Positions 9,720 through 50,158 of a stretch of DNA of 64,000 bases are shown here, in pieces. The notes under the pieces are model-generated. The model searched no databases, was not told the DNA's origin, and saw only the letters and a list, made by a program, of their open reading frames with translations. The DNA comes from Craspedostauros australis (Eukaryota > Bacillariophyta > Bacillariophyceae > Mastogloiales > Achnanthaceae). Position 1 is the first letter of the stretch. Every line of letters starts with the position of its first letter. The stretch is taken from assembly GCA_026770025.1 (NCBI GenBank), contig JAMXDE010000019.1, positions 1,054,001-1,118,000 of the forward strand. Reading direction: 5' to 3'. The position numbers and the translations under genes are program-made.

Positions 9720-10674
9720 ATGGCTGATGTGATCACAGCTGATCAAACGCTCCACATGGGGCTCATGGTGGTGAGCTCCTGCTATGGTGAATTCGACGGT
9801 AAGAGTATGATGGCCAAGACCAGCTGCTTCCGGTCGCATTTTGGTGTCGGGCCTGCAGCTGTCGCGGCTCTCTACTTTGACGTCCAATCACTCAACAAGG
9901 AACACGCGTTCGCGAGAATCTCTTTGCGCAGGCTGCTCATCACTCTGTTCTGGATGAAGACGTACAGCACGGAGACCTTGATGGCCAGCAAATTCCACCT
10001 CTCCGAGAAGACGATTCGAAAGCATTGCCTCGCATACGTGCAATCGATTGCTGCGCTGCGACAGCACAAGGTAAGATAGTCCAGAAGCATCTACATATGC
10101 GAGAATGTCGTCAATCTCATCAAGTCACTGTGAACTCACCATCTTCCAGATTCGTTGGACTCAAACCGTTGCTGAAAATGATCAAACTTTTATTGTCACT
10201 GTGGATGGTACACACTGCGAGATCAACGAGCCTCGAGATGATCCAAGCTCCAAATGGTTTTCGCACAAATCACATGGTCCTGGTCTTGCGTATGAGCTGG
10301 CAATCTCCATCCGTGAGAGCAGGTTGGTCTGGATCAATGGCCCATTTCCTGCCTCTGTGAACGACCGCACAATCTACAAAATGGAGAATGGTTTGCGATC
10401 CATTATCCCTGATGGCTGCCTTGGCATTGGTGATGAAGGATACACAAACGAGGACAAGCTGAGCACAGCGAACTCTCTCGATAGCAGAGAATTGGCAGAA
10501 TTCAAGCAAAGAGCACGCGCGCGTCATGAGATCTTCAATGGAAGACTGAAGGTGTTCAACGTGCTGAAAAATAAATTTCGCCATCACCGCGATCGCCATT
10601 TGGCAGTCTTCGAGACATGCTGTGTTCTGGTACAATATGACATGGAGAATGGAAATCCTCTGTTTGATGTGTAG
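9720..10674 (+). CDS. HARBI1-like DDE transposase of H2
   Basis: Exon 1 9720-10070 and exon 2 10150-10674 are joined in frame by a 79-bp intron (GTAAGA...CAG) to give 291 residues. The N-terminal ~117 residues are helical (FGVGPAAVAALY, LLITLFWMKTY, SEKTIRKH). Exon 2 opens with IRWTQ. The DDE core reads VDGTHC (Asp136), SSKWFSHKSHGPGLAYE, INGPFPASVND, GDEGY (Asp212) and RHEIFNGRLK (Glu244), so the full triad is present. Length and motif spacing fit the PIF/Harbinger (DDE_Tnp_4) family. It would excise and insert H2, probably together with a DNA-binding partner, in the nucleus. The intron position matches that of E1. I see no defect. Confidence 0.92.
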
Positions 10675-23435: not shown

Positions 23436-23904
23436 CTGCGCATGCGTTTTCCCCTGCGCATGCATTTTCCCTGCACAACTACAATTACCAAGACACAACT
23501 ACGACATGATTCGGTCCTTACTGAGACATGAAATCATATTCTATTTCTAGTCAATATTTCATAGACTAACATCATTGATCACACGAAAGAATCATACAAA
23601 AGAAGAAAAGGATGCTTGAATTCAGTTGAGACCTTAGCTATTTCCCCAATACACTAGTACGAACCTTAATTCTCTGTTGTTTGTTGCTAATTAGTACTAA
23701 AATTAAAGTGGAAATGATGCTGTGATGGCCAAGAGGCAGGATCGTATTCATGTCCTATCGGATATAAAACAGACATAACTAAGACATAAATACGTATGAG
23801 AACATGAGATGACCCGGATGTGCAGAGAATGTGCAGTTTGCAGGGAAGATGTCGACGCATGCGTGCATGCGCGAGGAATGTGCAGTTTGCAGGGGCGCAC
23901 GGTA

Positions 23905-24960
23905 AATTGTCCCCAGTAGGCCCAAACGAGAAGGTACTTAGATAGACCTATAATGTTTTAGGCCTACGGCGCGCGCCAGCCAGTCGAGGAACGCGCCGGC
24001 ATGGCCATGTGCTCACTATCCGTGTCTCACCGAACTGGTAGAGTTACGCGTATTTGTGGTATCATCGATATTCAAATTTGGGTCTATGAAAGTACCATAT
24101 TACCCACATATAACGTTACGCGCCAGCCGGCTTTTCTTCGCGCCAGCATGGCTGCGTGTTTTGCATCCGAATACACGTGACTGAATGTCCCCCTCGACGT
24201 CCACCTGAATGTCCCCCTTCGCTTTTTGCCCCCCTCAATGTCCCCCTCAACGTCCCCCTTCGCTTTTTTGTCCCCCTCAATGTCCCCCTCAACGTCCCCC
24301 TTTGCTTTTTTGTCCCCCTCCATGTCCTCCGTGGATCTTTTGCTTGCGGCAGCTTGCATTTGTCATGTGTAACTTGCACATCCGCACGTTAACAATGCGC
24401 CGGATTAATGAGATTCCCGACAACTCTCCTCGCCACACTTACACGATTTTGATGCTGATGTTCGTGCCACCTGTTTCTCTCTCTTCCTCTTGAGCCAACA
24501 AGAAAGCAATTGAAGATGAACAACAGCAGCGATCATCACTCCTGATGACAAAACAACATACTGTCAGGGGACATTCGATGGACACGGAGGAGGACAAAAA
24601 AGCGAAGGGGGACGTTGAGGGGGACATTGAGGGGGACAAAAAGCGAAGGGGGACATTCAGGTGGACGTCGAGGGGGACATTCAGTCACGTGTATTCGGAT
24701 GCAAAACACGCAGCCATGCTGGCGCGAAGAAAAGCCGGCTGGCGCGTAACGTTATATGTGGGTAATATGGTACTTTCATAGACCCAAATTTGAATATCGA
24801 TGATACCACAAATACGCGTAACTCTACCAGTTCGGTGAGACACGGATAGTGAGCACATGGCCATGCCGGCGCGTTCCTCGACTGGCTGGCGCGCGCCGTA
24901 GGCCTAACACATTATAGGTCTATCTAAGTGCCTTCTCGTTTGGGCCTACTGGGGACAATT
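23905..24960. mobile_element. M, hairpin-forming non-autonomous element inserted in the left TIR of T
   Basis: The 1056-bp element starts AATTGTCCCCAGTAGGCCC and ends with its complement. It is flanked by TA (23903-23904 and 24961-24962), the single TA of the T terminus GGGCGCACGGTAAGACCC. The arms (about 23905-24340 and 24570-24960) are near-perfect inverted repeats, so a single strand can fold into a ~400-bp hairpin with a ~230-bp loop. The left arm has extra ~42-bp units of the GTCCCCCTCAACGTCCCCCTT type (24180-24320) that the right arm lacks. A TA duplication suits Tc1/mariner-related foldback elements. Confidence 0.88.
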
Positions 24961-24962
24961 TA

Positions 24963-25120
24963 CGACCCAGGTCAGTGAGTCGACCAACCGTTTGTAAAGT
25001 AGAGTGGCACTTTTTCTTCGATTACCACCAAACTAAGCATACCAACCTACTCATTATAGTGTCCATAGCAACAGGAAAATTACCCAGAATCTCAAAGTCT
25101 ATAGTTTAGGTTTTATGGAC
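24963..25120 (+). repeat. Inner part of the left TIR of T
   Basis: It matches the complement of 30475-30632 with about four mismatches. The first 12 bases of the TIR lie at 23893-23904, before M. Confidence 0.9.
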
Positions 25121-25611
25121 AATCCAATATTTGAGGTCGTATGGGTCAATCACGTGCGTTCCACAATGTAGTTTTTCTGAAAGTTCTTTGCTGTTCTGAG
25201 TGAATATCGCAAGGTGCCCATTCACGTTAGTGTCTCCAGCTTTTTCCTTCCTCCTCGATCGTTTCGAACACGTTAAACAACGTTAGCGGCTCCAGAGTCC
25301 ATTGACATTTCCCGTTTGTGGACATCACACACATCACGCACATCATCGCCGCATGCGTATGACCACATCGTCGCCACGCAGACACAAAACTCCCGTCACA
25401 TTTTGGAGTCATTCCAAAGCTTCCTCCGCCGATGCAATGCTCATTCTATCTGTTGTGCTGCGGTTGTAGTGTGAGTAGTGAGAGTACTGGTTGCATTGGC
25501 AGTTGTGGTCGCCGCTGCTGCATCCAACACCTCCTCCACTCGCTTTCATTCCGCGTTCTCCAGTGCAATTCGTCGATCAATCAATCAATCTACTCTGTTA
25601 CCATCAACACC

Positions 25612-28600
25612 ATGTCCTCCACCGCCGCCAAAGCCTCCATCAAGAGTGACAACCCATCTCCTCGTAAGAAGCCTCGTTCCTGTGCTGCCCCTCTCGATTC
25701 TCCGTTTGATTCCGATGGCAACTTGGCACCTACTCGTGAGCAGCTGTTGCCTGACAAGCTGTCTGCTGGATTGCGGAAGCTAACCAACATCACTCATGCG
25801 ATCGAGGTGAAGCCGATGCTTCCAGTGGACAGCAACCTTGTTCCAACTTTGGCGCATGTCGATGCTGCCAACTTGCGCGTCGACGTGCGCCTGTCCAGTG
25901 TGGCTGGTGTCATTTTTGACACACCGACGGTCACACTGCGTACGGTGGGACAAGGTGTCGGTGCTATCACAGTGGTGGACGTCAGCGTGAACGTGCCACC
26001 TCCCGTCGAGTCTCCTGCCAAACCGACTACCCGCGCAAGCACTTCACGACACGCAAACGCTGTCGCTGGAGGCTCTTGCGCTCATGTTGATGTTGACAGC
26101 GACGACGACTACGTGGATGGCCGTGATCGCAGGAGGAAGCGAACAGGTCGCAACAGAATCATCAAGAAAACGGTGAGAGGATGGCGTCGCGATGCGTTGG
26201 CCGGCGTCGCAGGGTTGGTTAAGTCTGGTCTATCTCCAAAAGTGTTCGACTCTATGCCAAAGACGGGCTTCGTACTCGGTGGAAAACACGATAGGCAAGT
26301 CTGGAGCAACATCAAACGGCTGTGGGCACCAATTGCTTCTGCGCTCTGGGATGTGTTGCTCCCAAAAGCAGCCACACCGACTCGCCAGATGCATGAGGTG
26401 GTGCAATTCGTCCGAGCTGGGCAACCACTGCCACCAATGAGGCTTGCACCTAATCTGTACCGCATATGTGTTGGAGGGAGCAAGGTCATGCACCTCTGCG
26501 CGAGAGCCGTTCTCGCGCAGTCTGCGTCTCCAACAACATGCACAGACATTCTCACTGGATACGCCAATGGATTGCCGGAGGAAGAACGCGTGCGTGTACA
26601 TGGTAATCGATTAACTGTCACTAAAAGCCAACATAACACATTGCATCGTTACCACGACATGTTGAGCGACGGGGAAACCATTCCTCCCAAAGTTCTTCAA
26701 TATCGTGTGACTGCGTGTGCTTTGTCTGGTGTGGTGTCCTTTCTCTGCACTACGACCACGTACAAGGCTGGCTTGTGCCACGAAGTGGAGTGGGAAGGAG
26801 TCGTATTCGAGAATGTTCCTGTCTTCGATCGTGGAGGGAAAAGCATCATGGCGCTATTCGACATGTACAAGACAACCACCACCAACCCAGTGGGCAAGCC
26901 AGCATTTAAGGAGATGACGAAGCTACTAACACGACGTGGCAAAGTGAACACAGGGCTGTCTTCCTTCGAGAGCCACTTCTTGCTGGCGATGTTAACTCTC
27001 AAACGCACGATCTCGCGCCTCGTCACACTTTTGAAGGCTAAGTATCCCGCAACAAACGATGCCGAGGACATGAATGACGTGATTTCCCAACATCTACGCA
27101 CAGCCGAGTCTCTGTTGTACGCGTTGGAACTTCTTGTTGTCTTCGTCAAATGGGAATTCACTGCCTCTCACATGCAGATGGAGTGTGATGACCCACTGCA
27201 CTCGGCTCAATTCGCGCTCACGCTCAACAAGGAGAAGAAGAAAACAACGAAACGATCCCAACCAACCCGAGCACGTACCAACAAGCACAAGCTCCGTAAG
27301 AAGAGTACTCGAACCAACGACATCCCTTCAGTCACCAATGACATTCCATCCATCGCAATTGATATCCCGGACATCACTCGTGTGACAGATACTGCTGCCA
27401 ATGACACCGCCACTGCCAACAACGAACAGCCTCGCGTCCCCACAGACAAACAGCACACTGGAGTATGCAACCGTTGTGCAGGGGCGATGCGTTTTGTGGA
27501 TGACCGATATGTCCCCTTCGTCACGATGCTTATGGAAGATCACCTTGCGGAACACGCAACAGAATTGGAGTCGATGCTCAATGCCGCACCAGGGTTCAAC
27601 AACGAAATACTGTGGTACATGGCACACAAAGTGCGCAGCAAGGTGCAATTCGGACAAATTGAGCAGTACCTCCAAAGTATCAACAACCGAGAGGATCGCG
27701 CACATGTGGTGCTGGACCACAAACAGAAAATTCTTCCGACTGGCCAAGGCGAAGCTCAACAAGAATACTGGGGCAAGAAGGGCATGTCTCTGTTGGGTGC
27801 GATGGTGATCACATGTCACAATGACACATTCACTTATCGCTTCATCGATATCATTGTGAAGGGGAGGCCAACTCAAGACACCCTCCAAGTTGGCGGGCTT
27901 CTCGAAATTGTGCAACAACAGGTGAGAAAATTGCTTCCATCAGTCACCGAAATCGTCATCCAATCCGACAACGCGTGTTGTTTTGCGAGCCACGAGCACA
28001 TCCCGCTGATCACCTCGGTGCTCAACAAGAACCTTGGAACGCGAAATGTCCCCAAGATCGCGGCCTGGATCTACACCGAAGCCCAAACCGGAAAAGGCCG
28101 CCTTGACACGCACTTTGCGTACATCACTGTTGTGTTGCGAGCGTATGTGCTGGAGGACAACGACATCAAAACGGAACACCAACTTTTCGACGCATTGGAA
28201 GCTGGCAACATCGCGGGAACAACGACGGTTTTGGTGGATGCAGAATGCCTGGAGGGGCGCGTTGTGAGTTTCCCCGGCATGCCGAAGAAGCGTTTCTGCG
28301 CGAAAGGCCAAAAGGTACGCCAAACGCACGAGATCAAGTTTGGAGAAGACGAGGCCAATTTGGTGGCGGCATCTGGTGTCACAGACGATGTTCTCGTCCA
28401 GTGCGCTGAATGGAAAGAATGGGAAATTAACCAGCTGGTCATCCGCACCATCGCGACGCACACGTCAGGAAAGGAACCATTCACCGCGGAATCGCCGAAG
28501 AAGAAGAAGAAGACACGAAAGCGCGGATCTACTGCAGTGGAGAGCAAAGCGCTCGTCTTTCGCGACGCACTGAATATGGGACAAGGAGAGCTGCCACACG

Positions 28601-29250
28601 ACCACACCGCAGAATTGAAAGACCAGACCGCGGAAGCAGAAATCCCTCGACTCGCGGTGAAGGGCTGGGCAGTGAAAACCACGCGCAGCAACGCGGAGTT
28701 ACCATGGTACGTACTGCAGAAATTGGATGAAATGAGCACGGCAGCCAAAGAGGACCCGAAAAATCGACCAACAGAACACGAAGCGCACCGTCGACTGATG
28801 GAGCTGGAGGGAACAGCGACCGATTGGTATATCCAGTTGCACGCAAGTCCAATGCGCGTAAAGTCGTACTTGACTGCAGCATACAACAACGCACAGCGCG
28901 CGGCAAAGAAAACAGCCACGGCACCAACTACGACCGACAACAACACAAAAATGGCATCCACATCGTCACCGTCACCACCATCACCATCACCATCACCACC
29001 TGCAACAGCAACAGCAACAGCCGCAACTGTCGCGGATCCAACAGGTACGAAGCCAGCAGAGCAGCAGAAGAGCGAAGAAGAGGAAGAGATGGAAGAAGAG
29101 GAGCGAGAGAATAGAATGTGGTGCGAGGCCAACACCACCAGGAGGCACGCGGAGAACGAAGACAGGGTCCCGGAAGAAGTGAGGGATGCGATTCGCGCGA
29201 GGATGAGACGGAGACTGATGGCGAAAATGGAGCAACAAAATAAGGACTAA
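25612..29250 (+). CDS. Candidate DDD/E transposase of T (1212 residues), family not named
   Basis: The ATG at 25612 (MSSTAAKASI) is preferred. The frame is open 180 bp further up, but with weak composition. The N-terminus is Ser/Pro/Lys-rich. A strongly basic stretch (DRRRKRTGRNRIIKK, ~residues 170-185) could be a nuclear signal or DNA contact. Residues ~185-600 are an unrecognised helical region, followed by a Lys-rich linker. A CNRC motif lies at 619-622. The catalytic-looking core follows: VVLDHKQK (Asp702), YWGKKGMSLLG, IQSDNACCF (Asp786) and TEAQTGKGRLDTHFA (Glu823, Asp832). The order D...GKxG(M/I)S...SDNAxC...(S/T)E-Q-GK--D resembles a widespread, poorly described RNase-H-fold family in animals and algae, as I recall it. 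The tail (~1100-1212) is Ser/Pro-rich and then acidic. Position between long TIRs argues that it is the transposase of T, although the family assignment remains open. Confidence 0.8.
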   Translation: MSSTAAKASIKSDNPSPRKKPRSCAAPLDSPFDSDGNLAPTREQLLPDKLSAGLRKLTNITHAIEVKPMLPVDSNLVPTLAHVDAANLRVDVRLSSVAGVIFDTPTVTLRTVGQGVGAITVVDVSVNVPPPVESPAKPTTRASTSRHANAVAGGSCAHVDVDSDDDYVDGRDRRRKRTGRNRIIKKTVRGWRRDALAGVAGLVKSGLSPKVFDSMPKTGFVLGGKHDRQVWSNIKRLWAPIASALWDVLLPKAATPTRQMHEVVQFVRAGQPLPPMRLAPNLYRICVGGSKVMHLCARAVLAQSASPTTCTDILTGYANGLPEEERVRVHGNRLTVTKSQHNTLHRYHDMLSDGETIPPKVLQYRVTACALSGVVSFLCTTTTYKAGLCHEVEWEGVVFENVPVFDRGGKSIMALFDMYKTTTTNPVGKPAFKEMTKLLTRRGKVNTGLSSFESHFLLAMLTLKRTISRLVTLLKAKYPATNDAEDMNDVISQHLRTAESLLYALELLVVFVKWEFTASHMQMECDDPLHSAQFALTLNKEKKKTTKRSQPTRARTNKHKLRKKSTRTNDIPSVTNDIPSIAIDIPDITRVTDTAANDTATANNEQPRVPTDKQHTGVCNRCAGAMRFVDDRYVPFVTMLMEDHLAEHATELESMLNAAPGFNNEILWYMAHKVRSKVQFGQIEQYLQSINNREDRAHVVLDHKQKILPTGQGEAQQEYWGKKGMSLLGAMVITCHNDTFTYRFIDIIVKGRPTQDTLQVGGLLEIVQQQVRKLLPSVTEIVIQSDNACCFASHEHIPLITSVLNKNLGTRNVPKIAAWIYTEAQTGKGRLDTHFAYITVVLRAYVLEDNDIKTEHQLFDALEAGNIAGTTTVLVDAECLEGRVVSFPGMPKKRFCAKGQKVRQTHEIKFGEDEANLVAASGVTDDVLVQCAEWKEWEINQLVIRTIATHTSGKEPFTAESPKKKKKTRKRGSTAVESKALVFRDALNMGQGELPHDHTAELKDQTAEAEIPRLAVKGWAVKTTRSNAELPWYVLQKLDEMSTAAKEDPKNRPTEHEAHRRLMELEGTATDWYIQLHASPMRVKSYLTAAYNNAQRAAKKTATAPTTTDNNTKMASTSSPSPPSPSPSPPATATATAATVADPTGTKPAEQQKSEEEEEMEEEERENRMWCEANTTRRHAENEDRVPEEVRDAIRARMRRRLMAKMEQQNKD

Positions 29251-29263
29251 TTAATTCAAAATA

Positions 29264-30362
29264 GAGGCCTATCGCATTTCACATTCACACCCCTGTGCTC
29301 ATGTCACATGTGGCACTCACGTTCGGATTTCACATTGGTACTCGTGACTAGTTCGTGATCTACTCAGAAAGACGACCAACATGACTGAATCGGCTTCTCT
29401 TCTGTAGAATAGAGCTCTAGTTTAGACTGCTCTGATATGAATGCTCCTTGCATGTTATCGCATCACTTGTTGAGACCAAAGGTTGATAGGATCATTAATG
29501 GGTGTGCTCTGAGTTGCACGCAACGCACATCCCTCTTTCTTCTCTTAGGAGCTTCGTGTTCTGAGAGTTTCGCTGCCATCTCTTCTGTCTCAACTTTGCT
29601 ACTAACAGAGGTCCGGTAACATATGCGCAAGCACTTTGTCCCTGCTGATTCATAGCTTGTTCAAGGCTCTGTTGCCAATATCGATGACAGAGACCTCTTG
29701 ATCACTGTATCATGGAGATGGATCAGCAGTTTGTTGTCCAATAGAAGGTCTCCACGCAGTCTACACAGAACTATTGCGATTGCGCGTTGGGTTGGTTGGA
29801 GACCAACAACGACTTCCGATATGGCAGTCAGGATCTCCAAAAGATGCAAAATGCGCGTTGGTCGAAGTCCCTGGTCGTATCTGACTACACTAGTCCTCAG
29901 AGCATCAGGAACACGCCGTGGATGTTGTATCGGGTGAACTAGGATATGAGCAAAGATTCCTCAGCTGGATCATGAAGGGGTCCTTTTATATTTGCGCGTA
30001 GATATCATATGTGAAGCTTACAGGCATATTCGACATCTTAATCGCTCTCTATCGCTCCATGCACCTCTCATTCGGAATGCTAGTTTCATCATCACTAGCA
30101 TCTCAAAAAAATATCATTGTTACGACAAGGACGACTCAACATTTCTGCAAATGAAGAGAAATGATTGGCCATTCGTTTCGTTCCAACACGTGGAAGGTTG
30201 GATTGCCGGGACTGCAATGTGAAACTCAATTGTGTTTTTGGCTCCTAAAACGCAATCGAGTTTCACTTTCCGAGGGGGAAGTTCGCATGTTGCCCCTCTA
30301 AAAATATCATTATCAGGTTATTTTGTACCGTGGGACTCCCAATGTGAAATGCGATAGGCCTC
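29264..30362. mobile_element. U, 1.1-kb non-autonomous element with TA duplication, inside T
   Basis: The ends are perfect 22-bp inverted repeats beginning GAGGCCTATCGCATTTCAC, flanked by TA at 29262-29263 and 30363-30364. The element lies 13 bp after the stop codon of the T gene, so it probably forms part of that gene's 3' region. It shows no coding capacity beyond short frames. Confidence 0.85.
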
Positions 30363-30474
30363 TAATGTGAACAAATTCGCCAAAACCAAGAACACAAACA
30401 CGTTATTTTGGATCGAACTTGTCGGATGTCTATCGCCCAGTTTAGGAGTAGTCCAAAAATGCGCACATTGACGG

Positions 30475-30644
30475 GTCCATAAAACCTAAACTATGGACTT
30501 TGAGATTCTGGGTAATTTTCCTGTTGCTATGGACACTATAATGAGTAGGTTGGCATGCTTAGTTTGGTTGTAATCGAAGAAAAAGTGCCACTCTACTTTA
30601 CAAACGGTTGGTCGACTCACTGACCTGGGTCTTACCGTGCGCCC
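30475..30644 (-). repeat. Right TIR of T
   Basis: This is the inverted copy of the left TIR, intact here and ending CCGTGCGCCC before CAG. It serves as the empty-site reference for the insertion of M. Confidence 0.9.
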
Positions 30645-31814
30645 CAGGGAAGATGTCGACAAATGTGCGGATGCGGGGAAAATGTGCAGATCGTTGGGAA
30701 GATGCTGACAGATGTCCGGATGAGCGTACGAATGTTGACAAATGCGACGTTGTGCACGAAATGTGCAGATCGCAGGGAAGATGTCGACACATGCGCGGAT
30801 GCGCGGAGAATGTGCATGATGTGCAGTGCATGCGCGAGGAATGATGTGTGGAGGATGTTGTTGTAACGAACGTGCACTGGCACCATCCGCATGCAAATAG
30901 CCTGCACTGCGCAGCGCGTTCGATGACAACCACACATGCGGAGAGGCACATGACGTCGAACACGTGCATGCGAATGCGTGAAGTGTTGGTGACAACTGAG
31001 TTGTGCAGAGCAAGAGTCGATTCACTTTGTGCAGAGACGCACCACTCTTTTCGCAGGGAGCAGGGGAAATAGACGACATTTTCCCGGATGTAGGGAAAAT
31101 GTCAGCATTTCCTGTTATTGTTTTCCTGTATTTCCCAGCACTACAAAACGAGTCCCATTGCATCTGTTAGGCATCATGTGTAGTGCTTTGTAAGAACTTC
31201 ACATGTACCATGTCGACTACTCCATGTGTTGTACAATGATACCATCAACTTTGTGTATCGCGATTTCCGAGACACGTTCAAGTCGTGTTGTTTTCGCGGT
31301 TCCAACAAACAGTTGCCGGTTGTGTGCAATTCTACTCGTATTTGCAAAGAGCGTTTTTGGATTGTTCTCGCTTAGTCGCTTCGCCCATGCACGTTTCTTC
31401 GCAAATCCGATTGCTGTTGCACGATACACAGATGGCACTCATTGGTGGTGGATTGCTGCAAGCAGAGCAACTGTGCGCATTCAAGTGCGTCATGCGGAGA
31501 ACAGAGCAGTTGTGATTCGAAGACGGCGGAGTGGTCTATATGACCCCATTCAGGATACGATAGTATACAAATGCGGATTTTTAATATTTTTATTTAAATC
31601 ATCCTATTATGTTGTAGATAGTATATGGGGTAAGTTACAAGCTTCTGGGCCTTGTAGTTAAAAAGTTTATATTTTTCGCATTAGTCTACGACTAAACACG
31701 TGAGGCATGCGAACGTAGAGGGGCAACTTGGATTCGAAATTCTCAGTCGTGTTTTGACCAATGTCCAGTCGTGTCCTTCATCGACACACTCACATTTCGC
31801 GTGGGTGAGGCGGG

Positions 31815-45241: not shown

Positions 45242-45334
45242 CGTTTGATCAAACGATTAGTCTGAAATCGTCCTATGAAACTACCACGTGATCCAACACC
45301 TACCAAACAACAACCCCAAAGCCAACCATCTACC

Positions 45335-48300
45335 ATGAGTGAAGAAACAACCATCAAAGAGCATTCCACCAAGTACTTCGAGTTCTCAGGAGAGAAGACC
45401 GAAGCCTGGTACGAGTGGAAGAGCAAGGTGATGTCGGTCGCCCACAACAGGGGATGGGCAGAAGCCTTAGAGACGGACATGTCTCACAGCGCCATCGAGA
45501 CTACCAAGCTCGAAGAAGGTCAACTGAAGGAGGTCAAGATGAACAACGCAGCACGCAACTACCTCACCGTCGCCTGTACCAACAAGGCATTCATCATCCT
45601 GGACCTCAACGGATCAGCTGACTACGAACCCGACATGCATCGCCACAACGCTCACCTCGGCTGGAAAGCTTTGTGCAAGAAGTACGAGCCGGATTCCGAC
45701 GATGCATACGTTCGTGTGCTCGAGGAGATGAACAAGGCGTGTACCATGACCAAGAAGGAAGACCCGGAGGACGTCATCAACAACATCCTCATCGTGAACA
45801 AGAAACTCCATGCCATGAAGAAGGCGAAGCCAATGGCTGAACTCAAGGCCATGATCCTCGCTATGATCCCAGACGCATACGAAGCTATCAAGCGCAACGC
45901 TCGCCGTGACTCTACCATGGGACTCGACGACCTAATGGATGAGCTTCATGACCGCTGGACCGATCTCTACGGCAGCAAGAAAGGAGACACGGAGAAGGCG
46001 TTCTACACGAACCACACCAAGAAGACCAAGGTGTTCTGCCGTTACTGCGGAAAGCAGGGACATACCAAGGCAGTGTGCCGCAGCCATGCCAGTGACCAGA
46101 AGAAGGGGACTGTTCATGAGGACCGCGGAGACAACACCAACACCACCACCACCACCACCACCAACAACAACAATAACAACAACAACAACGGAGGTGGCAA
46201 AGACAAGAGCCATGTCAAGTGCTTCCGATGCGGTCAGATGGGACACTACGCGAACAAGTGCCCACAGAAGGACAGTGATACAGGACTTACCGCGTACGTC
46301 CTCATGGCGGAGGATATCCGTGATGATGGCACCAATGGAAAGGATCCGACGGACTTTGTCTGTCAGGCAGATCCTGATCCTACCGATCGCAAGTGGCTTT
46401 TGGACAGCGGGTCTACGCTGAACATTTGTGCATCCGACACCCCACTCATCGATGAGAAGCCAAGCTCCCACAAGATCAGAGTTGGGAATGGAGAATGCGT
46501 CGTGGCCCAAAGCGAAGGATTCGTGGATATGGTCGATGCCGAGACTGGCAACCCAATCCGCATCCGTGTGGTCAAGGCACCGCAGTTCACCAAGAACCTC
46601 ATCAGCATCAAGAAGTTGAAGCAAGGGGGATATAAGGTGGAGTTCGATGACGACGTCGCAATTGTCACTCACAAGGCATCAGACAAGACAGCCTTCAAGT
46701 GCACCACTGCCGAGGATGGCATGTACTACCTCAACCCTGACTTGGACCAAGCACATTGTGCCCAGCTGATCACTACGGCACGAGCTCGATACCACCAGGC
46801 AGGAATGACCACTACCAACCCAGCGACTACCATGTCGAAGGAGGTTGATACCACCATGAACACTGAACATGTTCCTACCGATGATCCCAACATGGTACCA
46901 CCCCATGATGTGCCCACCGATGACCCATCGAACAAACCGAAGGATGTACCAACACCAAACGACGTCACCCCAGTCCGATCCAAACACATGGACATCAACG
47001 AAGCCCATGACAAGTTCGGACACATCGGCCGCCGTCTCCTTGAGAAGACTGCACAGCAGTTCAACATCAAGTTGACAGGAGAGTGGAAGGCATGCGTCGC
47101 ATGTGGGTTGATGAAAGGCAAGCAGAAGAACGTGCCTAAGTCCACAGCAACTCGATCGGTTGTCAAAGGGGAGAGAATCTTCGTCGATACCACTGGACCC
47201 TTTTCACCTGGGATCGCAGGCAATCGGTATGCATACGTGATGGTCGATGACTGTACCCGATACAGCTGGGTATACTACAGCTCACACAAGACTGAGATGT
47301 CTTCGCATGTGGAGCAAGTCTCACTCGACATCCAACGTGCAGGAGGCCAACTGAAGTACATTCGTGCTGACAATGCCGGAGAGAACGTGGCGCCATTGGA
47401 GAAGTGGAGTCAACGCACCGGAGTCTCACTTGAGCTGACAGCCCCGTCCACACCGCAGATGAATGGAGTCGTGGAGCGACGCATTGCACTGTTGACCGAG
47501 AAGGCCAGAACGCTGGTCACAGCTGCCAAGTTCACCACAGAGGCTCGGACAAAGCTCTGGACCGAGGCCTACACCGTGGCCAACATCCTCACGAACATCA
47601 CCAGCACCAATGCCGACGACGTCTCATCCTTTCAGAAGTGGACTGGCAAGCCATCCAAGCTGGTACCTCACCTCGTCCAATTTGGCAGGATTGGCATGGT
47701 CGCGGATCGGGAACTGATCAAGGGCAAGTTTCGCCACAGAGCCAGGAAGATGGTGATGGTCGGGTATGCGCCTCATCATACGGCTGATACCTACCGCTTC
47801 TTCAATCCGGCAACAAAGATGGTCAAGCTATCTCGCGATGTGCAATGGCTGGACTGGGAGCGAATCCATCCAAAACAGGGCATGCAAGTCTTTGAGGAGG
47901 AGGAGGATGATGACGCGGACGACATCCAACGTCCAACAGGCACTCCAAGTGATGATGGAGATGGGAATCCGGGCAGGGAGGACCCAGTGACCGTCACACA
48001 ACCGAGTCAAGCAACAGCAATGACGGATGCCGACGTTGCAGTGGGGAGGAATGACACCCCACAAAGCGGGTCTGGCACTCCACCGTCTGGCAACCAATAC
48101 CGAACCCGGTTCGAGCGATTTGCCAATACCAAACCAGGCAAGGCCGCTACCTTGGCTCAACACCATCCAGCAGCTCGCAAGATGCTTCAGGCAGTGCAGC
48201 AGCGCGAAGCAATGCGTGGCACGGACAAAGTGGATTCGGTGGAGCAGCAACTCAACTCACCAACTCCTGATCACCCAAGGGCAACGATGGATCGACAGAT

Positions 48301-50158
48301 CGTGGTCCACCAAGCACCAACTGGGGAGGACCAGGATGAAGAGGTTCACTTCGTATTCTCTACACAGGAAGACGATACCCCCACCACCGTGCGACAGGCT
48401 CTATTCGGACCAGACCGAGAACAATGGGCACCATCCATGGCCGAAGAGGTCATGAACTTCTTGTCTCGGAAGGTGTGGAAGAAGGTTCCACGCAAGGTCG
48501 CAAACAAGGTCGTCAACAAGATCATGCGAACCAAATGGGTCTTTGTGAAGAAGCAACTCTCAGACGGCTCCATCAAATACAAGAGCAGGTGTTGCAACAA
48601 GGGATTTGACCAAGTACCAGGAGTGGACTTCGAGGAGAGCTTTGCACCAGTGGCAACTGATGCATCCATACGGCTTGGACTCAACATCTACCTGTTCCAG
48701 GAGGACTGGACAATCGAGATGATTGATGTCAAGGCGGCATTCCTTGAAGGGACCATGGACCGACCAACCTTCATCGAGATACCTGAGGGACTACATGAAC
48801 TGGGCTTTGTCACCAAGCAAGACAGAACGGACAATGTCTTCATGCTCCTCAAGTCGATGTATGGCAATGTCGACGCAGCCATCAAGTGGTTCAAGACCTA
48901 CCATGACATGATGGTCAACGCCGGACTCACCCAATCCAAGGCGGACCCATGCGTTTTCTACAAGCGGGTCAATGGCGAGACAACACTCATCGTCATGTGC
49001 TTCGTGGATGACACCATGCTGATCGGTGAACAATCCGAGGTCAACTGGTTCAAGGCAGAAGTCGGAAAGCATTTCCAATTCACCGACGAAGGGAAGCTCA
49101 AGAAGCATCTTGGAATCATGTACGAGTTCCATCGTGACAAGAATGGACAGGAGTACATCGAGGCAAGAATGAATCACCTTGTGCAGAAGATCACCTCAAC
49201 ATTCGAGAGACACAGCGGTAGACCAGCGAAGAAGTACAACACACCAGGTACACCAGGAGTCACCATGATGAAACATGAAGGGGAACCCATCCATCACCAC
49301 ATGTACCGGAAGATTGTGGGACAGATCATGTATCTTGTGACGAAGCTACTACCAGAAGGAGCAAACGCAGCTCGAGAGCTCACCAAACACTTCTCGAACC
49401 CAGGAGAGCAACAATGGAAGGAACTGGAGCGCTTCGTTGGGTATCTTCTTTACCTCGGTGATGACATCAAGCTCACCTACCGGAAACCGAAGGAACTACG
49501 GGTGTTATCCATGGTGGACAGCAACTACGCCACAGACAAGGATACACGCCGAAGTGTCAGCGGAGGAATCCACACCATTGGAGGCAGCATCGTCAGCTGG
49601 ATCTCCAAAACGCAACAAGCAACCACTCTGTCAAGCACCGAAGCAGAGTATGTCTCTCTCAGCATTGGAGCACAGGAAGTCAAGTTCATCCAAATGCTCA
49701 TGGAGGAGATACTCCACATCACAACACCAGACATCATACTTGAGGACAACACGGGGGCGATTTACCTTGTGAAGAATCAGCAAGTCAGCCAGAGGACGAA
49801 ACACATCGACGTTCGCTATCACTTTGTGCGAGAACTCTACCAAGACCAAAAGATCACAGTGAGATTCGTTCGGTCAGAGAGCAACGCAAGCGATATCCTC
49901 ACGAAGAATGTCACAGAGAAACTGCAGACATATCACGGGAACAACATCAGACACGGTACGGTATACGGGTACGTATATTGGGAGGACATTGTGGAGGAAG
50001 TGTATGATAACGCACGCCACTTGTTCGACGCGGTACAGAGGGAGGATGTCGAGATTTGGCATGACGTCACCGACCAGACGAAGGCGGGACTCGGATCGAG
50101 ACTGAAAACTCACGGAGGTCAGATGAATCGTGTGTCTGTACCACGACCGAAACTGTGA
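45335..50158 (+). CDS. Gag-Pol polyprotein of Copia element K (1607 residues)
   Basis: The start is at ATG 45335 (MSEETTIKEH). The frame is open from 45275 and an earlier ATG there is possible. In order: Gag of the UBN2 type (~1-225, KYFEFSGEKTEAWYEWK); zinc knuckle 1 CRYCGKQGHTKAVC (~235); a Thr/Asn linker from ACC and AAC triplets; knuckle 2 CFRCGQMGHYANKC (~296); aspartic protease LLDSGST (Asp357); the integrase HHCC (HDKFGH...CVACGL, ~557-590) and DDE residues Asp618 (FVDTTGPF), Asp679 (RADNAGE) and Glu714 (NGVVERR); reverse transcriptase (TKWVFVKK...CFVDDTMLIG, Asp1225); and RNase H (SMVDSNYATD, SSTEAEYVSL, LEDNTGAIYL). All motifs are present and I see no frameshift. The last 36 codons and the stop lie inside the 3' LTR. 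Confidence 0.96.
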   Translation: MSEETTIKEHSTKYFEFSGEKTEAWYEWKSKVMSVAHNRGWAEALETDMSHSAIETTKLEEGQLKEVKMNNAARNYLTVACTNKAFIILDLNGSADYEPDMHRHNAHLGWKALCKKYEPDSDDAYVRVLEEMNKACTMTKKEDPEDVINNILIVNKKLHAMKKAKPMAELKAMILAMIPDAYEAIKRNARRDSTMGLDDLMDELHDRWTDLYGSKKGDTEKAFYTNHTKKTKVFCRYCGKQGHTKAVCRSHASDQKKGTVHEDRGDNTNTTTTTTTNNNNNNNNNGGGKDKSHVKCFRCGQMGHYANKCPQKDSDTGLTAYVLMAEDIRDDGTNGKDPTDFVCQADPDPTDRKWLLDSGSTLNICASDTPLIDEKPSSHKIRVGNGECVVAQSEGFVDMVDAETGNPIRIRVVKAPQFTKNLISIKKLKQGGYKVEFDDDVAIVTHKASDKTAFKCTTAEDGMYYLNPDLDQAHCAQLITTARARYHQAGMTTTNPATTMSKEVDTTMNTEHVPTDDPNMVPPHDVPTDDPSNKPKDVPTPNDVTPVRSKHMDINEAHDKFGHIGRRLLEKTAQQFNIKLTGEWKACVACGLMKGKQKNVPKSTATRSVVKGERIFVDTTGPFSPGIAGNRYAYVMVDDCTRYSWVYYSSHKTEMSSHVEQVSLDIQRAGGQLKYIRADNAGENVAPLEKWSQRTGVSLELTAPSTPQMNGVVERRIALLTEKARTLVTAAKFTTEARTKLWTEAYTVANILTNITSTNADDVSSFQKWTGKPSKLVPHLVQFGRIGMVADRELIKGKFRHRARKMVMVGYAPHHTADTYRFFNPATKMVKLSRDVQWLDWERIHPKQGMQVFEEEEDDDADDIQRPTGTPSDDGDGNPGREDPVTVTQPSQATAMTDADVAVGRNDTPQSGSGTPPSGNQYRTRFERFANTKPGKAATLAQHHPAARKMLQAVQQREAMRGTDKVDSVEQQLNSPTPDHPRATMDRQIVVHQAPTGEDQDEEVHFVFSTQEDDTPTTVRQALFGPDREQWAPSMAEEVMNFLSRKVWKKVPRKVANKVVNKIMRTKWVFVKKQLSDGSIKYKSRCCNKGFDQVPGVDFEESFAPVATDASIRLGLNIYLFQEDWTIEMIDVKAAFLEGTMDRPTFIEIPEGLHELGFVTKQDRTDNVFMLLKSMYGNVDAAIKWFKTYHDMMVNAGLTQSKADPCVFYKRVNGETTLIVMCFVDDTMLIGEQSEVNWFKAEVGKHFQFTDEGKLKKHLGIMYEFHRDKNGQEYIEARMNHLVQKITSTFERHSGRPAKKYNTPGTPGVTMMKHEGEPIHHHMYRKIVGQIMYLVTKLLPEGANAARELTKHFSNPGEQQWKELERFVGYLLYLGDDIKLTYRKPKELRVLSMVDSNYATDKDTRRSVSGGIHTIGGSIVSWISKTQQATTLSSTEAEYVSLSIGAQEVKFIQMLMEEILHITTPDIILEDNTGAIYLVKNQQVSQRTKHIDVRYHFVRELYQDQKITVRFVRSESNASDILTKNVTEKLQTYHGNNIRHGTVYGYVYWEDIVEEVYDNARHLFDAVQREDVEIWHDVTDQTKAGLGSRLKTHGGQMNRVSVPRPKL

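Follow-up and report, generated by a model that had tools for sequence, protein, structure and literature searches.

The stretch of DNA analysed here (64,000 nt, positions 1054001-1118000 of contig C17; hereafter the window) contains a transposon, T, at 24964-30631, which is ~4.6 kb long once a later insert is subtracted. We found that T is very probably (roughly 85%) an autonomous cut-and-paste DNA transposon with a 1212-aa protein as its transposase. The ends of T, its target duplications, its many copies with conserved ORFs and the order in which it and its neighbors are nested were all shown, and we infer that the 1212-aa protein moves the element. In the mechanism we propose, this protein would bind the ~157-bp terminal repeats (first bases GACCC or GAGCC), T would be excised by the DDD/E active site of the protein, and the element would be joined to a target with a central TA by means of a 4-bp stagger that leaves NTAN duplications. 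The genome searched was the 74.8-Mb assembly (90 contigs) that includes the window; its uL3 protein is of the eukaryotic 60S type, with similar scores against many chains.

Three nested elements between 23893 and 30644

The interval 23893-30644 consists of three mobile elements, one inside another: a foldback element, T within the foldback, and a 1.1-kb non-coding insert within T. Two sets of long inverted repeats are present in 23700-30800, one with 384-nt arms and the other with 160-nt arms. The 384-nt arms (23902-24285 and 24580-24963, 98% complementary) are those of the foldback, which is ~1.08 kb long, starts GGGCGCACGGTAAATTG..., and occupies 23893-24963 on the forward strand (left arm, spacer and most of the right arm, the host of T) along with 30636-30644, also forward, where its last bases, CGTGCGCCC, match the ends read in other copies. 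Coordinates 23893 and 30644 are thus the exact outer limits of the foldback and not of T. A CAG duplication flanks the foldback at 23890-23892 and 30645-30647. The foldback also carries internal tandem repeats of the GTCCCCCTCAACGTCC type.

The first 201 bases of the foldback match the genome at 15 places, of which two are in the window itself, and most copies elsewhere are 97-98% identical over these bases. Since several copies are this similar, the foldback has been recently active. Both ends were read for four other copies (L002/L003, L004/L005, L006 and L008; the remaining matches are outside this count), and all four start with GGGCGCACGGTAAATTG, end with CAATTTACCGTGCGCCC, have CAG on each side, and are without T. 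In the window, T separates the two parts of this right end (CAATTTAC-[T]-TTACCGTGCGCCC), and CAG follows. Because the uninterrupted form, CAATTTACCGTGCGCCC, is read in the other copies, T inserted into the foldback; because of how the end is split, T has a 4-bp TTAC duplication (24960-24963 and 30632-30635). Hence, T is a later insertion in the right arm of the foldback.

The earlier note had assigned a CAG (CWG) duplication and the terminal word ACGGTAA to T. Given the CAG flanks and the intact CAATTTACCGTGCGCCC|CAG junction in 4/4 other copies, both features are those of the foldback, and T itself has GACCC/GAGCC ends. The foldback is probably mobilized by a Harbinger-type transposase. The note had further suggested, from the CAG flanks of 23893-30644 and from ACGGTAA at its ends, that T might be a Harbinger-type vehicle whose gene had been replaced. 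This reading, like that of T as a relative of Harbinger, falls since the CWG target came from the CAG-duplicating foldback that T entered, whose other copies have the signature without having T; T copies elsewhere show NTAN duplications and GACCC/GAGCC ends. The T protein also has no DDE_Tnp_4 match, unlike the window's ORF at 10105-10671, and an hhalign profile comparison of the T core with that ORF found no similarity. We therefore regard a Harbinger origin of T as extremely improbable, and the note's statement that the protein is not of the HARBI1 type holds. The nesting of the insertions, which is visible because other copies keep the site uninterrupted, removes the apparent puzzle of a non-Harbinger protein between Harbinger-like ends. 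The ORF at 10105-10671 is itself a fragment of a Harbinger-type DDE_Tnp_4 transposase, perhaps the element called E1 in that note.

The innermost element (29263-30363, 1101 bp, starting AGAGGCCTATCGCATTTCACATT...) is non-coding, has imperfect inverted ends (AGAGGCC...), and lies within T after the ORF, with AAT on both sides (29260-29262 and 30364-30366). It is absent from 6/6 other T loci that were aligned across the site (L014, L017, L018, L028, L034 and L048), and L028 has the uninterrupted site, CAAAATGTG. Compact T copies are ~4.54-4.57 kb; the copy in the window is 5668 bp because of this insert.

Ends, target duplications and copy number of T

The second set of inverted repeats (24961-25120 and 30475-30634) is 160 nt long and 98% complementary, which agrees with the long terminal repeats described earlier; 157 nt of each repeat are in T and 3 nt are in the target duplication. 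The left terminal inverted repeat (GACCCAGGTCAGTGAGTCGACC..., 24964-25120, forward) and the right one (30475-30631, reverse) thus set the limits of T, with termini that begin GACCC or GAGCC.

Searching the genome with the left repeat gave 40 scored matches (of 71 first-look candidates), including the window's two. Thirty ends were fetched (L009-L038); they include both ends of nine copies, one of which is the T of the window. We found an exact 4-bp duplication in 9/9 of these copies: TTAC, ATAC, ATAG, ATAA, TTAG, ATAT, GTAT, ATAG and TTAT, where the ATAT pair is read with the terminal G of its left end changed to A. In all nine, the four bases just before the element are the same as the four just after it, which fixes the length of the duplication at 4 bp. 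A 2-bp TA duplication is ruled out, as the outer two bases are also duplicated in every copy. Such pairs were read in the first subfamily only.

Of the 29 readable ends, 28 abut NTAN (the exception is CAAT at L038, and the thirtieth end, L037, is eroded and outside the 29). The ends are not all independent, as the nine pairs account for 18 of the 29 and L012 and L013 share a flank. In comparison to the central TA at 28/29 ends, TA makes up a fraction of 0.030 of the dinucleotides in the window. The 4-bp match and the central TA are more than chance. Hence, T is a genuine multi-copy family in its own genome and behaves as a 4-bp-duplicating cut-and-paste transposon. The earlier note had called for a genome search for further copies bounded by terminal repeats and CAG/CTG flanks; the repeats and duplications were there in all nine two-ended copies, which supports its view of a TIR transposon, but the duplication is NTAN rather than CAG/CTG.

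Two left ends, L012 (C48:444890) and L013 (C5:4964), have an identical 80-base flank, so they are probably one insertion duplicated together with its surroundings. The C5 copy is less than 5 kb from the start of its contig. The 28-kb interval C5:4964-32955 at first resembled a giant T with cargo, a reading that we rejected, as the interval holds a T copy split by other sequence with long ORFs. Compared with the window, this copy is 98% identical in two long stretches and 93% identical in a 410-base middle one. In this stretched copy (L046, L047 and L048; C5:4950-33150), the interrupting sequence has stop-to-stop frames of 1420, 1614 and 1787 residues, and one long frame within the interval looks Copia-like.

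The T protein, its relatives and its putative active site

The ORF at 25612-29250 (forward) is uninterrupted and encodes the 1212 residues previously reported, or 1272 residues from an upstream in-frame ATG. The words D...GKKGMS...SDNACC...EAQTGK noted before are present in the protein, and a CxxC is at residues 619-622. The protein occurs in its own genome in at least 39 rows, which fall into at least 16 at 88-100% identity (one of them the window's), at least 22 at 58-60%, which form a second group, and one short fragment; these counts are lower bounds, as the best candidates were scored, and some rows are partial. We found 32 of 38 rows to be free of internal stops (stops in 4/16 and 2/22).

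L039, an 1170-aa protein that belongs to the second subfamily, is 59% identical to the T protein overall and 82% identical over a 168-residue core, and the identity between the two subfamilies is highest, at 93%, in a 60-column segment of the alignment that starts at residue 700. NG86 (Nei-Gojobori) dN/dS was 0.21 for the whole protein, 0.08 for approximately residues 618-910, 0.29 before this part and 0.24 after it, values that are rough because dS exceeds 1 (saturated) in all four partitions; with YN00, the parts on either side of the core came out at 0.13 and 0.33. The T protein thus looks to be under purifying selection, with dN/dS well below 1 and lowest in the core.

The second subfamily has its own terminal inverted repeats (152 bp, 86%) in an element of ~6.06 kb (one copy, C20), and one end each was read in three of its copies, next to GTAG, ATAA and ATAG. 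For a third subfamily, two copies were fetched of 15 matches starting at base 11, and these have the start of a protein that is 54-55% identical. The left ends of both copies follow ATAC and ATAG, and their terminal word, GAGCCCCTCGAG, differs. Over long alignments, the DNA of the third-subfamily loci L043 (C39) and L044 (C27) is 85-86% identical to that of the second subfamily.

Could the protein be cargo and T be moved by an unseen transposase? We consider this very unlikely. The 1212-aa ORF is by far the longest of the window's T (the next, 355 aa, is antisense within it), the protein is retained in two subfamilies whose terminal repeats differ, it is apparently under purifying selection, and its conservation is highest around the putative catalytic words; the point in favor of cargo is that the RNase H fold expected of a transposase depends on poor models.

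The candidate catalytic residues of the T protein are D702, D786 and D832 (or E823). D702 ends a hydrophobic, strand-like stretch, D786 is in SDNACC after another such stretch, and the third acidic residue is ambiguous between E823 and D832, both in EAQTGKGRLDTHF. Given the two strand-like stretches and the later acidic residue, a DDE/D enzyme is expected. D702, D786 and D832 are identical in the two proteins aligned (T and the second subfamily). We infer an RNase H-like core at approximately residues 695-870 in which D702, D786 and D832 would be catalytic.

Two single-sequence AlphaFold models, with mean pLDDT of only 40 and 46, place strands at 697-701 and 780-783, adjoining D702 and D786, and both predict two long strands and a helix in the interval from the first of these strands to the second, as in RNase H folds. 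The models conflict at residues 813-826, which form a strand in one and a helix in the other. None of the 50 Foldseek rows listed for each of these low-confidence models is a DDE/D transposase; the best E values were 0.16 and 0.08, and herpesvirus capsid chains and further unrelated folds made up most of the listed rows.

We found no match of the T protein above the cut-off in Pfam or NCBIfam, whose weak rows were taken as chance, and chance-level rows only among PDB sequences. The protein thus has no credible match in these libraries, in line with the earlier note, which had placed it outside the familiar transposase families. An hhalign comparison of the T core with the integrase region of the window's Copia element found no similarity. 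In viral contigs, three scans for relatives gave 234, 51 and 108 pattern-matching stretches with 0 confirmed, and degenerate patterns gave 0 matches in two scans and one in the third (L049), a chance match in an unrelated frame. Similarly, prokaryote genome contigs gave 48 pattern-matching stretches with 0 confirmed, and a pattern scan gave one match (L042), which lies antisense to another open frame and is due to chance. For plasmids, tblastn with the 188-residue core alone returned 12 records with a best E of 2 and nothing related.

These searches bear on whether T, together with its two sister subfamilies, represents a superfamily of DDE/D transposases not described before. The lack of a credible match in Pfam, NCBIfam and PDB sequences and of a relative in viral contigs, prokaryote contigs or plasmids (core alone) would fit such a superfamily. 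However, this absence is weak evidence, since the collections hold few eukaryotic transposases and the contig scans used short exact patterns that would miss distant relatives, and a known superfamily, Sola, matches the anatomy of T. We consider a new superfamily rather unlikely. Its traits, tentatively, would be a ~1200-aa single-ORF protein in which a CxxC precedes a D-(83)-D-(45)-D core; they might also include, with similar doubt, ~150-bp terminal inverted repeats (GACCC or GAGCC), near-strict NTAN targets and recent activity in a eukaryote.

Comparison with known transposon superfamilies

T, which we favor as a cut-and-paste transposon moved by its own protein, can be set against known superfamilies by its duplication. 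The target of piggyBac and of Kolobok is TTAA; both are ruled out, as TTAA is found at 1/29 readable T ends. PIF/Harbinger elements duplicate CWG or TNA. T resembles them by neighborhood alone, in that it sits in a CAG-duplicating foldback, and differs in duplicating a 4-bp NTAN instead of 3 bp and in having no DDE_Tnp_4 match. For PIF/Harbinger relatives, the portions of the literature at hand give duplications of 0, 2 or 3 bp. T shares the central TA of its target with Tc1/mariner, but it duplicates 4 bp in 9/9 copies and not the 2-bp TA.

Zisupton (KDZ) and hAT have 8-bp duplications, as stated in the excerpt of the source available (PMC12730594), and on that account are ruled out by the 4-bp duplication of T. 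Ginger1 and Ginger2 duplicate 4 or 5 bp according to the section of the source available (PMC10045372), and T is like them in its 4-bp duplication. In contrast to Ginger, the T protein has no integrase (rve) row in Pfam, and Ginger is ruled out on this ground. As a control, the window's Copia ORF gives an rve row at E 1e-6, itself below the Pfam curated cut-off. This ORF (45275-50155) is a Copia-type polyprotein of 1627 aa with no stop (RVT_2, SH3 and CCHC, with rve and gag rows below the cut-off), and part of another Copia-type polyprotein is at 41-1120.

In a limited survey of the literature, from which we do not claim absence from print, nothing was recognized as describing NTAN elements. 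T represents a well-populated and apparently recent family of transposons, missed by the domain libraries that we searched. If the protein is unrelated to Sola, the family would be a further lineage of transposases, one whose targets follow a simple 4-bp rule.

Among known superfamilies, Sola is the best fit by anatomy (4-bp duplication and a possible D-D-D triad), and we put membership of T in Sola, possibly as a divergent group, at about even odds. The likeness considered here is one of anatomy. Dictyostelid Sola2-type elements have AT-rich 4-bp duplications, which fits T in length; however, these are AWWT in the part of that report available (PMC3627910), whereas those of T are NTAN. Sola is described, in the passages available from a further source, as having a DDD transposase, a 4-bp duplication, terminal inverted repeats of 11-1124 bp and a length of 2-9 kb for most elements (PMC10741241). 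In comparison, T has a 4-bp target duplication in 9/9 first-subfamily copies and a possible DDD in D702, D786 and D832, identical in the two aligned proteins, though the fold models are poor. Its 157-bp terminal repeats and ~4.6-kb length, like the 152 bp and ~6.06 kb of the second subfamily, are within the Sola range as given there.
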